Virus record (IMG/VR): IMGVR_UViG_3300009788_000035
Location: 1-48,461 of that record
Origin: a virus
DNA length: 48,461 nt
Direction: 5' to 3' (one strand)
In this document: positions 37,447-42,765 of the stretch, piece after piece
How positions within the stretch are numbered: the first letter of the stretch is position 1
Layout: each line of letters opens with the position of its first letter
Notes under the pieces: generated by a model
Databases searched by the model: none
Seen by the model: only the letters and a program-made list of their open reading frames with translations
Told to the model about the DNA's origin: nothing
Program-made: the position numbers and the translations under genes

Positions 37447-37774
37447 CTTTCTTGTCCTCTGCTGTTAGGAATAGCTCTAACCTAGCCATTGCATTCCACG
37501 CAACAGCAGTTATATGTAGTAGCCCTGACTCCTTATCTATTACTTCATCTTCCAGCAAGTGGTGCCGCATCATTGCATCGCTGTATCTATGGTAGGCATC
37601 ATCCAAGTGCCTCCAATTACCCCATGCATACTTCTTAGCCCCAAACTGTGATAGTTTAGTTACTGAGGATATAGCCTGGGGGAAGTAGCTAGTAAAACCT
37701 TGATAAATTTGTAGCTTATCATCATCAAACTTCATTCCCTCTTCTCCTATACTTGCTTTAGAACGGTATGTCAT
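37433..37774 (-). CDS. Nucleotide pyrophosphohydrolase-like protein (DUF5664 type)
   Basis: 113 residues from the first ATG, or 100 from the ATG at 37735, which has the better GGAGAAGAGGGA upstream. The pattern KFDDDKLQIYQGFTSYFPQA, FGAKKYAWGNWRHL, DAMMRHHLLEDEVIDKESGL and HITAVAWNAMARLEL is that of the small all-alpha dATP/dGTP diphosphohydrolase-type family widespread in phages. The conserved His, Glu and Asp residues would bind metal. It probably shapes the nucleotide pool alongside the reductase. Confidence 0.75.
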   Translation of the reverse strand: MTYRSKASIGEEGMKFDDDKLQIYQGFTSYFPQAISSVTKLSQFGAKKYAWGNWRHLDDAYHRYSDAMMRHHLLEDEVIDKESGLLHITAVAWNAMARLELFLTAEDKKDDKD

Positions 37775-38399
37775 CGTCTTCTATCTCTTTCTTAGCAGGT
37801 TCCTCATCACCGTCTAAGAACTCCTCTAAGTCAGACCCTGAGTACTTGACACCCCTACGTATCCAATTCTGTGTACTAGGCCATAACTTGGAGAACACTT
37901 CTTTATCAGGTAAACCTGTATCAAAGATAACCTCATTGTACTCCACCCCTGACACATCTATATCATCAGGGCACTCAGAAAACCCCTTACAGTTAGCATA
38001 GGTTCCCTTGTCTTTTACTTCTTCATGAACTATTTTTACATAGCACGGTCGCCCAATGAGTCCTTGTAGAGGTCCAGCACATGACTCCATAACATCATGA
38101 TTTGGATCGAGAGCTTCACAGAAATCAAACATGTTCCCTCGTGAAGCCCCTGGATTCACCCTAATGGGATAAGGGGATGTGACCATATGTTTGGTTTCAC
38201 CCTCTTTATCCTCGTATGTATCCTTTACTAGGGTTAAGATGGGAAGAAACATAGCCTTATCTTCCTTCTTCTCTCCTTTCCATTCTCCTCCGTCTTGGAT
38301 ACCTAGATCAATTAGTCCTGATAGGACAGCTAATCTCATACCCTTCTTGGGGATAGCGAAATCTCCTTTAGACTCGCCCTTAGCTACTGTTAAACCCAT
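37758..38399 (-). CDS. Single-stranded DNA-binding protein
   Basis: 213 residues, T7 gp2.5-like by length and position near the replication genes. The hallmark acidic tail ending in an aromatic residue is clear (EDDDIPF), preceded by LDGDEEPAKKEIE. The body has GMRLAVLSGLIDLGIQDGGE and PYPIRVNPGASRGNMFDFCE, typical of phage single-strand-binding OB folds. It coats single strands and recruits the polymerase and helicase through the tail. Confidence 0.88.
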   Translation of the reverse strand: MGLTVAKGESKGDFAIPKKGMRLAVLSGLIDLGIQDGGEWKGEKKEDKAMFLPILTLVKDTYEDKEGETKHMVTSPYPIRVNPGASRGNMFDFCEALDPNHDVMESCAGPLQGLIGRPCYVKIVHEEVKDKGTYANCKGFSECPDDIDVSGVEYNEVIFDTGLPDKEVFSKLWPSTQNWIRRGVKYSGSDLEEFLDGDEEPAKKEIEDDDIPF

Positions 38400-38635
38400 T
38401 ATATTTTCTCCTTTTCATTACATAAAGTCATTAGGGCATTACTATAGCCATCCCAATTACTAACACCTGCTTCCAGCAGAGCGTGTAATACTTTCCTATC
38501 TTGTACATAGCAAAAGTACTCGTCTATTGTCATAGTTACAGAATTACCCATAGTTTCTTCCGGTACATTTTTTTGATTTAATTTCTGCATTGCTAATGCA
38601 GCACCTTTTAGTTCATTAACATCCATACCACTCAT
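38399..38635 (-). CDS. Small protein, paralogue of the gene at 38641-38835
   Basis: 78 residues. It shares with its neighbour the C-terminal pattern L(L/M)(E/D)(A/S)GV..W(D/E)GY..A(L/V) and a central T(I/V)..(D/S)EY. The start GGAGTAAGTACTATG is nearly identical to the hub 15-mer. Its stop overlaps the single-strand-binding-protein start (TAATG). Function unknown. Confidence 0.65.
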   Translation of the reverse strand: MSGMDVNELKGAALAMQKLNQKNVPEETMGNSVTMTIDEYFCYVQDRKVLHALLEAGVSNWDGYSNALMTLCNEKEKI

Positions 38636-38640
38636 AGTAC

Positions 38641-38835
38641 TTACTCCTGTTCCTTAAAGGAGGCTACAGCATCCTCATAGCCCTCCCAAGCCTCAACACC
38701 TGAATCCATAAGGTGTTGTAAACGCCCCGCAGTCTTTACCAGAGAATAATACTCAGACCTCTTAACTGTCATATATAAGTTATCATCATCTTTTGTAGTC
38801 TTTGACCATATCGTATTTCTTAATGTATTATCCAT
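38641..38835 (-). CDS. Small protein, paralogue of the gene at 38399-38635
   Basis: 64 residues with MTVKRSEYYSLVKTAGRLQH followed by LMDSGVEAWEGYEDAV, a motif family repeatedly seen in small phage proteins. The ATG overlaps the upstream stop (TAATG), so translation is coupled through this run of small genes. Function unknown. Confidence 0.65.
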   Translation of the reverse strand: MDNTLRNTIWSKTTKDDDNLYMTVKRSEYYSLVKTAGRLQHLMDSGVEAWEGYEDAVASFKEQE

Positions 38836-39026
38836 TATTTAACACCTGTCTTTGCAGACATAGTTCCGAGGATACCAGATATCCCTTTAAAATTTTCTAA
38901 AAATGACTCATTAATTTTAATCTGTTGGCTGTGCCATTTAGTTGATTCCTCCATAAATTCTATTACACTTGTCGCAAATTGAAACTGATCTATTCCCTTG
39001 CCACTTATAGCCTCTATGTGATCCAT
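38835..39026 (-). CDS. Small helical protein
   Basis: 63 residues, helical, containing FATSVIEFMEESTKWHSQQI and INESFLENFKG. It resembles the next upstream protein in its FMEE(S/T)..H..Q..IN segment, so the two may be diverged paralogues. It starts at a TAATG overlap. Function unknown. Confidence 0.6.
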   Translation of the reverse strand: MDHIEAISGKGIDQFQFATSVIEFMEESTKWHSQQIKINESFLENFKGISGILGTMSAKTGVK

Positions 39027-39265: not shown

Positions 39266-39294
39266 TTTAATATCGCTCCCTTATGTGAGTTAAC

Positions 39295-39390
39295 TTAAGA
39301 TTGGGGGCGGAAATACTTACCACCGGAATCACTCCGCAACGTTATAAGAATGACACCTCTAAGGCTGATGGTATAGTATTTCGTTCCCAT
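39295..39390 (-). CDS. 31-residue leader peptide
   Basis: 31 codons, MGTKYYTISLRGVILITLRS then a Gly/Lys/Arg end. The start is 5 bases after a perfect GGAGGT, but that GGAGGT forms one arm of a stem-loop at 39396-39411. It is the first ORF after the promoter at 39430-39458. It may be a regulatory leader ORF or a small functional peptide. Confidence 0.6.
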   Translation of the reverse strand: MGTKYYTISLRGVILITLRSDSGGKYFRPQS

Positions 39391-39395
39391 ATCTA

Positions 39396-39411
39396 ACCTC
39401 CCGTAGGAGGT
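39396..39411 (-). promoter_or_regulatory. Ribosome-binding-site-sequestering hairpin
   Basis: The transcript reads ACCUCC-UACG-GGAGGU: a perfect 6-bp stem closed by a C(UACG)G loop, a UNCG-type tetraloop known for exceptional stability. The 3' arm is the full ribosome-binding site of the 31-residue leader ORF. The fold would block initiation unless opened. Confidence 0.8.
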
Positions 39412-39429
39412 AACGTTCAACATATATAA

Positions 39430-39458
39430 ATAATAACGCTATAATTTATAGTTGTCAA
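39430..39458 (-). promoter_or_regulatory. Strong sigma70-type promoter, leftward
   Basis: On the minus strand a perfect -35 TTGACA (39458-39453), 17-base spacer, and -10 TATTAT (39435-39430). It lies at the end of the DNA polymerase gene (the -35 overlaps its stop) and drives the small genes, single-strand-binding protein, exonuclease, reductase and endonuclease I. The predicted start site is near 39423. Host RNA polymerase would suffice. Confidence 0.8.
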
Positions 39459-40855
39459 TGAGTTTCTGCCCAATTCTTACCTATATCCGCTGTACCTGCC
39501 ATAGGTACTGTCAGTTTAAGATACTCCCCAGCCTTTACAATAGATTCCTCTAAGATTTTACTAACAGCTGTACTATCTTTATCTAAAACCTCAAACTGGA
39601 ACTCATCATGCACATGGGCTACCATAGTTGCATCATAACCACCTGCCCTTATGGACTTATGCGCATATAAGGTAGCAACCTTCATCATGATAGCCTCTGC
39701 ACTCTGTAGTAGGTACACTAGAAGCATATGAGCACTTCGTACATACACAGGCCTACCGTCTATACCAATGAGGTGACCTCGTTGCATCCACGCTCTTGTA
39801 ATGCCTTTAATTAATCTCTCCACATTAGGGAGATTCTTGATAAACTTTGCTCGCATATTAGTAGCCTCTCTTTTCGTACAACCTATCTGGGAAGCTATCC
39901 TATTATCACTTGCCCCAAAGAGTAGAGCATATATGAATGTCTTGGCAGCACCTCTAGTCTGGCACCCTGATGCTACCATATTGAGGCTATGAATGTCTGT
40001 ACCATCTTCCTTCTTGCCATTAATGACAGCTTCAGTATAAGCGGCGTCACCCATATAGTGGCAGAGCATTCTTAACTGACAACTAGCAGCGTCACAGCCT
40101 ATCAGATTGTAACCTTCAGGAACAATGAATACCTCACGCATCTCATGCCCAAAGACTGCTCCCTTCCAGTTACCATCTTCATCGTACTCACCACCAGGTA
40201 TATTCACTATAGTTTTATGCTTTAGCCTAGCAGTAGGAGTTAGCCCAGTTACATCTGCTGTTATTCTCCCATCAGCCCTAATCATCTTTAGCCAGCCTTC
40301 AAGCTGGGACTTTCGGTGTCTGTACTTAACCCTCTTAACTATATCAAACCCTACAGTAGATTCTACTCCTCTAAAGTTATCATCTCCTGATATCTTAGGG
40401 CTAGTTCTCTTGCCAGTGAGCTTACTTACATTCCACTCCTCTGGTTTCCAACCCACATCTAGTAGGTAGTTCTTTATTTGAGCCACTGATCCAAGATCAA
40501 AAGGAATAAAGTTAATGCGAGTAAATACCCCAACAACTTCAGGGGGATTGTGATTATAAGCAGCTTCGATCCACTCTGTAACTGCTTGACTATATTTTCC
40601 CGATTTGAGAAAAGGTTTTTTAACATATGGAAATACTCCTTTGCTTCGCTTTATTTGTGGGACGCATCTCTTAGGTAACTGAGGTGCAACCCTCTCATCT
40701 ATATCTTCTATGTACGTATTAAGGGTACATATATGTTCCTCCATACGGGACTTATCTACTAAGAACCCTTTACGCTTCTGTTCTACGAGACACTTAGCGA
40801 ATTCTTGCTCTATCTTCAGAGCATGAGACCAGTCCCAAGTATCCGTGTCACTCAT
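39455..40855 (-). CDS. Family A DNA polymerase, polymerase part only
   Basis: 466 residues. Polymerase motifs of the T7/Pol I family are complete: motif A LIGCDAASCQLRMLCHYM (Asp255), motif B RGAAKTFIYALLFGA (Arg301, Lys305, Tyr309), and motif C HVHDEFQFEV (Asp417, Glu418). The Tyr corresponding to T7 Tyr526 is kept; T7 Tyr530 is Phe here. The 3'-5' exonuclease domain is missing from the N terminus and is encoded separately at 42298-42765. Start overlaps the preceding stop by 8 bases (ATGAGTGA). Confidence 0.93.
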   Translation of the reverse strand: MSDTDTWDWSHALKIEQEFAKCLVEQKRKGFLVDKSRMEEHICTLNTYIEDIDERVAPQLPKRCVPQIKRSKGVFPYVKKPFLKSGKYSQAVTEWIEAAYNHNPPEVVGVFTRINFIPFDLGSVAQIKNYLLDVGWKPEEWNVSKLTGKRTSPKISGDDNFRGVESTVGFDIVKRVKYRHRKSQLEGWLKMIRADGRITADVTGLTPTARLKHKTIVNIPGGEYDEDGNWKGAVFGHEMREVFIVPEGYNLIGCDAASCQLRMLCHYMGDAAYTEAVINGKKEDGTDIHSLNMVASGCQTRGAAKTFIYALLFGASDNRIASQIGCTKREATNMRAKFIKNLPNVERLIKGITRAWMQRGHLIGIDGRPVYVRSAHMLLVYLLQSAEAIMMKVATLYAHKSIRAGGYDATMVAHVHDEFQFEVLDKDSTAVSKILEESIVKAGEYLKLTVPMAGTADIGKNWAETH

Positions 40856-41056: not shown

Positions 41057-41965
41057 TTAAAACAATTCCTTCTTAAGTTCTTTTATCTTCATAATTACTA
41101 ACCCATAAAGCTTCTTAAAATCAATTATAGGATTATGTTTCTTCTTTATTATATTCCATAACTCTTCATTAATCAAGTCATAGTATACCCTATTCAGCAA
41201 TTGAGGCACATACTTACCCTTCCATCCTGAGTCATTACTGTTAACAATCTTAGCGTAGTTCTTATCAACTAAATCAGGAGTGATATACTTATCTGTTATA
41301 TCCTGCTCTACCATCTTAGGACCGTTAATCTCCCCTGCACCCATGGCCTTAGTGTGCTCTTCCTTGAATGCCGTAGAGACAATCTTAGCGTACTCTAATC
41401 TACCATACTTATTCTTATAGTCATAGTTCTTTATTACGATACCCTCACCAAAACCTGCCCCATCTTTTATCAGGTAGGTATTCATCTCTAGTTCTCGTAT
41501 CAGATTCTCATAAGATGGGTTACGGATAACCTTTTGAGGCAGTACATAATCAAGATCATGCTTGTCTAGGTACCTACAGTACTCTCCAAAGCTTAAGTAT
41601 TTACCATAAGCAGTATTATACACATCAAATATGTAGAAGGTATCCCAAGCATCTGCTCTGTATGTCTTAAGGCTATGAGGAACTAACCACTCACCGTATA
41701 GGATATGAAGAGGGTAATCCATAAAGTACTGATTAATACTCACATTGTCCTTCATGGACTTATAAAACCCTCTATTATCACGGTCTAATGTGAGAACTCT
41801 ATTCCTACTTGCGCACTGGATACCTGTAACGCCATCTTCAGGTAGCCATACGGACCCACTAGTGCCATCTAGCTTAGGGAATATGTGACAGCTACCTAAC
41901 TCTATCCCTTCAACTTCATCATTTCCATATCTTTCTATATGGTTGTATTTTCTAAAGTCTTTCAT
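41057..41965 (-). CDS. RNA ligase
   Basis: 302 residues, nucleotidyltransferase fold. Motif I KLDGT with the AMP-accepting Lys (about 33, in FPKLDGTSGSVW), motif III ILYGEWLVPHSL, motif IIIa FYIFDVYN, motif IV GEGIVIKNYDY, and motif V LEYAKIVS are in the expected order. It joins RNA ends with ATP, a function phages often use to repair tRNAs cut by host defences. It is placed between the two halves of the split DNA polymerase. The specific substrate is unknown. The ATG overlaps the preceding stop (ATGA). Confidence 0.88.
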   Translation of the reverse strand: MKDFRKYNHIERYGNDEVEGIELGSCHIFPKLDGTSGSVWLPEDGVTGIQCASRNRVLTLDRDNRGFYKSMKDNVSINQYFMDYPLHILYGEWLVPHSLKTYRADAWDTFYIFDVYNTAYGKYLSFGEYCRYLDKHDLDYVLPQKVIRNPSYENLIRELEMNTYLIKDGAGFGEGIVIKNYDYKNKYGRLEYAKIVSTAFKEEHTKAMGAGEINGPKMVEQDITDKYITPDLVDKNYAKIVNSNDSGWKGKYVPQLLNRVYYDLINEELWNIIKKKHNPIIDFKKLYGLVIMKIKELKKELF

Positions 41966-42297: not shown

Positions 42298-42765
42298 TTA
42301 TATTTTCTCTACTAATTCTTTCATGACATAATCGTATGCCATATGGTTGATCTCTACATCCTCAGAGCATCTATGCAGCATGTCAGTTGAGAATGCATTC
42401 CAGTCTTCATGTTCCGGCTTCTCCCTACCAAATATCTCTCCAAAATTAGCTAACGCATGCCCCCCTTTCCTATCAGGACAAGCCATCTGTGACATTATAT
42501 AGGTATCTAGTATAGCACCCTTGTACTCATACCCCAGTACCTTATCGAGTAGAGGGATATCATAATCAATTACGTTGTGTCCTATCCATGTGTCTACAGT
42601 TGACATATACTCGCACATATCCTTATATGTGTCAAGAGTAGATAGTACATCACCATTACATATCTTGGTTACGTGTCCTGTCTCTATGTCTTTACCTACA
42701 AGGCACCAGACTGTATCTACCTCTTGTAAGAAACCATTAGCTTCAATATCAATTACTGCTATCAT
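42298..42765 (-). CDS. DNA polymerase 3'-5' exonuclease part
   Basis: 155 residues, DnaQ/T7 gp5 N-terminal type proofreading exonuclease. Exo I is VIDIEANGF (Asp6, Glu8), Exo II IGHNVIDYDIPLL (Asn64 to Asp69), Exo III HRCSEDVEIN (Asp136). The T7 enzyme has this domain fused to the polymerase; here it is an independent protein encoded upstream in the same operon, three genes before the polymerase part. It is probably an obligate partner of it. Confidence 0.9.
   Translation of the reverse strand: MIAVIDIEANGFLQEVDTVWCLVGKDIETGHVTKICNGDVLSTLDTYKDMCEYMSTVDTWIGHNVIDYDIPLLDKVLGYEYKGAILDTYIMSQMACPDRKGGHALANFGEIFGREKPEHEDWNAFSTDMLHRCSEDVEINHMAYDYVMKELVEKI

Follow-up and report, generated by a model that had tools for sequence, protein, structure and literature searches.

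Hairpins that sequester a ribosome-binding site (RBS) have been described in the phages T4 and Aeh1 for I-TevI, segB, mobE, soc and e (PMC2988022). In T4 and its relatives, early and middle transcripts that come from upstream promoters fold so that the RBS is hidden, whereas a late promoter is placed so that its transcripts cannot form the hairpin and translation is switched on (PMC2988022). Stabilising stem-loops at the 5' terminus of the message are cited for ompA and papA in PMC3997798.

We analysed a locus on the minus strand of the window, which is the whole 48,461-nt stretch of viral DNA, where a hairpin follows a promoter-like sequence. As in T4 and Aeh1, the Shine-Dalgarno (SD) sequence is predicted to lie within a stable stem beside a start codon. 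Unlike in those phages, the promoter of the window lies upstream, so that its own transcripts always carry the hairpin; in addition, the open reading frame (ORF) is very small and has the character of non-coding sequence, although the score of so short a frame is not absolute. A second promoter whose transcripts would lack the 5' arm was not found inside or just before the hairpin when the minus strand was searched for the consensus sigma70 type. Compared with the ompA and papA stabilisers, the locus shares a stable hairpin near the 5' end of the message, but about 12 unpaired nt would come before it if transcription begins at the predicted start. The features of the locus are collected in Table 1.

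Table 1. Features in and around the gap behind the DNA polymerase gene (positions in the window).
Feature	Position	Strand	Remark
DNA polymerase gene	39455-40855	minus	upstream side of the gap
Gap from DNA polymerase to next gene, 189 nt	39266..39454	minus	sole real gap in the replication cluster
Sigma70-type promoter TTGACA-17-TATTAT (predicted)	39430..39458	minus	11/12 consensus matches; overlaps the DNA polymerase stop codon
Likely transcription start, A	39423	minus	7 nt past the -10; placed from the promoter position
Hairpin ACCUCC-UACG-GGAGGU	39396..39411	minus	perfect 6 bp; Shine-Dalgarno formed by the 3' arm
31-codon ORF, probably not a gene	39295..39390	minus	ATG at 39390; stop ends at 39295
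Long imperfect stem-loop (GAAAUACUAUACCAUC.../GGUGGUAAGUAUUUC)	~39302..39389	minus	spans the 31-codon ORF
First clearly coding gene past the promoter, 79 aa	39026..39265	minus	codon score resembles those of real genes
63-aa gene	38835..39026	minus	19-residue motif in common with the 79-aa gene
gp5.9-like RecBCD inhibitor, copy 1	38641..38835	minus	Pfam PF25708 above cut-off
gp5.9-like RecBCD inhibitor, copy 2	38399..38635	minus	Pfam PF25708; phrog_6234; similar to copy 1
SSB-like gene	37758..38399	minus	phrog_862, which has no named function

A predicted internal promoter in the only gap of the replication cluster

Every other gene junction in the stretch from about 34 to 45 kb measures -19 to +24 nt. 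Because the 189-nt gap is the sole one in the cluster, a promoter at this place is credible. The first-pass annotation had reported a near-consensus TTGACA-17-TATTAT promoter here, and both its sequence and its place on the minus strand proved exact, with the -35 hexamer TTGACA at 39458-39453, a 17-nt spacer and the -10 hexamer TATTAT at 39435-39430. Promoters with at least 11/12 matches are expected by chance about 1.4 times per window, so the promoter by itself is unremarkable. A purine is present at the expected start position, 39423. Judged from its sequence, the promoter would be of the host type (sigma70). An ATG at the predicted start shares the frame of the 31-codon ORF and opens a frame of 42 codons; the transcript could start with this AUG.

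The promoter had also been described as leading an operon for nucleotide metabolism and recombination. Such genes do lie downstream, but the promoter is internal to a co-directional block that starts far upstream. The gp5.9-like pair is followed by the SSB-like gene and then by genes for a MazG-like or pyrophosphohydrolase-like protein, an exonuclease and a ribonucleotide reductase. The designation of the SSB-like gene is a guess from its position and the acidic C-terminal tail of its product. The T7 protein gp5.9 blocks RecBCD through DNA mimicry (PMC9836394). The 79-aa gene matches no family, a peptide-pattern search of IMG/VR gave no relative of it, and its RBS lies outside any stable stem according to the fold prediction.

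Two pairs of small neighbouring genes were observed in this stretch. The gp5.9-like copies stand in tandem and have diverged (31% identity across 39 residues). The adjacent 79-aa and 63-aa ORFs have in common the 19-residue motif V..FMEE....H..Q..IN, which suggests a second tandem duplication.

The UACG hairpin and the predicted occlusion of the Shine-Dalgarno sequence

On the minus strand, the hairpin consists of ACCTCC (39411-39406), TACG (39405-39402) and GGAGGT (39401-39396), and the ATG at 39390 comes 5 bases past it. The earlier description of an ACCUCC-UACG-GGAGGU hairpin with the RBS as its 3' arm, 5 bases before an ATG, was accurate in every coordinate. The closing pair around the UACG loop is C-G, and cUNCGg loops are very stable. 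No second hairpin with a 4-nt loop, at least 6 perfect pairs and at least 4 GC pairs occurs elsewhere in the window. Since about 1.6 hairpins of such type are expected by chance per window, the hairpin alone is unremarkable. The probability of finding one inside the 189-nt gap is about 0.007 (0.033 with loops of 3-8), and a strong SD and ATG in which a perfect stem of at least 6 bp contains the SD are expected 0.01 times per window, both tests having been picked after the feature was seen.

The occlusion of the SD was predicted for transcripts that start at 39423 and extend to eight downstream end points. At seven of the eight lengths, the unpaired probability of the SD core was about 0.03 or less (about 97% or more paired); it reached up to 0.33 at one intermediate length (end at 39350). 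Given this start site, the folding model agrees with the claim that the hairpin would hide the RBS.

The coding character of the 31-codon ORF

The ORF announced behind the hairpin is present, with its ATG at 39390 and its 31 codons. Its log-odds codon score of -0.16 per codon is below those of all 361 of the 361 31-codon chunks taken from long genes, whose lowest score is -0.114 and whose median is 0.225, and it falls in the lower fifth of the out-of-frame chunks. The genes directly past the ORF score 0.16 to 0.26, and the 42-codon frame is likewise low (-0.097). Some other mechanically called short ORFs score equally low, so the codon score leaves room for an atypical short gene, and the codon usage of an ORF of recent origin may well be atypical. 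The probability that a given ATG in sequence of this kind is followed by an open frame of at least 31 codons is about 0.11. A tblastn search of 50,697 phage records with the 42-residue frame returned no match at E values up to 1, and degenerate patterns of the ORF start had no match in IMG/VR or in GTDB genomes. We consider that the 31-codon ORF is probably not a gene.

A predicted structured leader

The long stem-loop has a predicted energy of -30.2 kcal/mol (z -3.47), and none of 200 shuffles was as stable. It is among the lowest 1.5% of the 100-nt windows of the phage; other windows, mostly coding, are lower, and z values below -3 are found in 1.6% of all 100-nt windows, again mostly coding. 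The entire 144-nt leader is also more structured than its shuffles (z -3.10). The 5' arm of the UACG hairpin starts at 39411, some 12 nt into a transcript that begins at 39423 as predicted, and such a distance is less favourable for 5'-end protection. A search of Rfam returned nothing at the gathering score; the best hit, SraG (21 bits vs 50, E 0.15), lies on the other strand and is at chance level. This second, larger stem-loop had escaped the first-pass annotation, as had the ATG at 39423 and the two gp5.9-like genes.

We favour, with about even confidence, a sigma70-type promoter that lies inside the gene block, is followed by a structured and probably untranslated leader, and would serve small genes that include the gp5.9-like pair. 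An ordinary, lineage-specific promoter and leader is the most likely explanation of the locus. A host-type promoter inside the block would boost transcription of the small genes behind it, among them the SSB-like and exonuclease genes and both gp5.9-like inhibitor genes. The transcript would start near 39423 and fold at once, first into the UACG hairpin and then into the long stem-loop, and the outcome would be a compact, mostly untranslated 5' leader. Because GGAGGU forms the 3' arm of the hairpin, it would be hidden, and the 31-codon frame would therefore be translated little or not at all. Ribosomes would first load at the 79-aa gene and largely skip the leader. Such a leader would probably protect the 5' portion of the message or set it apart from the first gene; the role of the fold may be protection, spacing, processing or nothing. 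The sole gap, the near-consensus promoter, the purine start, the structure beyond shuffles, the predicted pairing of the SD core, the poor score of the ORF, its lack of relatives and the two gp5.9-family genes downstream all count for this reading. Against it stand the chance frequency of 11/12 promoters, the about 1.5% of windows, mostly coding, that fold as stably, and the distance of the hairpin from the predicted 5' end; moreover, the combination of SD, hairpin and ATG (0.01 per window) is left as a by-product. At present, the locus stands mainly as a well-placed internal promoter.

Alternative explanations

A translational switch is a first alternative. Here the hairpin would block the 31-codon ORF until it was opened by a factor, by heat or by the passage of a ribosome, and the peptide or its translation would regulate the downstream genes. 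The SD is occluded at a good distance from the ATG, the arrangement is rare by chance (0.01 per window), the ORF ends 29 nt ahead of the next ATG, and its translation would disrupt the long stem. We nevertheless regard a switch as unlikely, given that the ORF scores as non-coding and has no relatives, that there is no second promoter inside the hairpin, and that the RBS of the 79-aa gene is not within a stable stem. The first-pass annotation had proposed a translational switch or a means of keeping a leader peptide off, and the analysis lent it little weight: the ORF scored below 361/361 chunks and lacked relatives, and nothing was conserved in the relatives examined. A GGAGG-containing palindrome near an ATG will always resemble a hidden RBS. 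It is somewhat unlikely, in our judgement, that hairpin and ORF are fortuitous: the promoter gap would be real and its sequence relaxed, a 6-bp palindrome would have arisen there, and both hairpin and ORF would be idle. The 1.6 such hairpins expected per window, the probability of 0.11 for the ORF length and the lack of conservation in the relatives examined fit this possibility; the probability of about 0.007 for a hairpin inside the gap and a whole leader that folds better than its shuffles do not.

The remaining explanations assign other functions to the same elements. RNase III cutting is found at the borders of the T7 early genes, and the more than 20 predicted pairs, with internal loops, between two genes on one transcript could form a comparable substrate. 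Cutting of the long stem-loop would part the polymerase message from the later genes and leave hairpin-bounded ends, but nothing in Rfam matched at the gathering score, and we find RNA processing quite unlikely. The ATG at 39423, which lies 7 nt past the -10 and in frame with the 31-codon ORF, raises the possibility of a leaderless gene: its AUG would be the very 5' end of the message and encode a 42-residue peptide, a ribosome would pass through the hairpin, and the inner SD would be incidental. Such a gene is highly improbable, as the 42-codon score is low (-0.097) and the 42-residue frame has no relatives. We also considered a transcript whose first RBS is closed off by a UNCG hairpin from the outset, and whose entire leader ORF is folded into a second stem-loop, as a sensor or switch that would couple the unlocking of the 31- or 42-residue peptide to the RecBCD inhibitors and recombination genes; this is very unlikely. 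If the leader were regulatory, a control point would lie directly ahead of anti-RecBCD genes in a little-studied phage family.

Occurrence of the hairpin pattern in databases

The pattern ACCTCCTNCGGGAGGT-N2-8-ATG was found in at least 119 IMG/VR stretches. Among the 80 matches listed, nearly all of the hairpins run into a T run and are terminators, with the ATG incidental; the remaining listed matches are mostly inside coding frames or ahead of very short ORFs. A recurrent viral RBS hairpin was rejected, since the listed loci are overwhelmingly terminators. The hairpin of the window has the stem ACCTCCTNCGGGAGGT in common with the CUNCGG-type intrinsic terminators in phage contigs. However, those terminators enter a U tract, whereas the hairpin of the window goes on as UAGAUAUGGG. 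An intrinsic terminator on either strand was likewise rejected, as there is no U tract and none was called.

Other arrangements appeared among the matches. A conserved stretch, ACCTCCT(T/A)CGGGAGGT-TTTGTTGTATG(A/C)TAAATAA, recurs with similar upstream sequence at the loci L097, L105, L109, L114, L146, L152, L157 and L165; it is terminator-like and has one variable loop base. At L115 and L130, the hairpin ACCTCCTTCGGGAGGT lies between TTGAC and TATACT, about where a promoter-like sequence would have its spacer.

Comparison with related phages

On protein similarity, the phage belongs with the Zobellviridae. Its large terminase subunit (TerL) is 43-46% identical to members of this family, and its polymerase is 40% identical to records classified there. 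The nearest locus that covers the region, L002, is 53% identical in polymerase, 56% in primase and 55% in exonuclease, and the order of primase, polymerase, SSB and exonuclease is common to both. Searches with the polymerase, primase, ribonucleotide reductase and terminase and with the whole record found none nearer than L002 that covers the region. Ribonucleotide reductase matches reached 58%, at loci with little else in common with the window; terminase matches reached 70% (L298 and L299), on contigs that stop short of the replication genes. There was no DNA similarity in phage records, and no genome contigs with the polymerase were found.

The junction behind the polymerase is tight in these relatives. 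In L002, a new ATG lies within about 15 bases of the polymerase stop, and in L213, L214 and the three named family members Klyazma, Vibrio 1.208.B and Pecta the next gene overlaps the polymerase gene or starts within 25 nt. At the 94 polymerase loci whose downstream sequence could be used, the next ORF lay at a median distance of -14 nt, and the next gene mostly overlapped or abutted the polymerase gene. A promoter of at least 11/12 matches behind the polymerase was found at none of the 94 (0/94), and CCTCC-N4-GGAGG was absent from 22 related virus records. Gap, promoter, hairpin and ORF were found in none of the relatives examined, which are Zobellviridae with a closest polymerase identity of 53%. 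Conservation of the stem and ORF in relatives had been suggested as a check, and its absence from close relatives as a refutation. Neither stem nor ORF was found, and the proposal fails on that count, but the nearest relative has no more than about 53% identity in polymerase. Within the material compared, the feature is confined to this lineage; with the nearest comparison at about 53% in polymerase, close kin may share it.

The family-A DNA polymerase of the window is split on the minus strand, with one gene for its exonuclease domain (42298-42765) and another for its polymerase domain (39455-40855). Between the two lie a gene for an RNA ligase (41057-41965, PF09414) and a pair of small ORFs. 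In relatives the polymerase is unsplit: it occupies one 621-aa frame in L002 and a single gene in each of Klyazma, Pecta and Vibrio 1.208.B.
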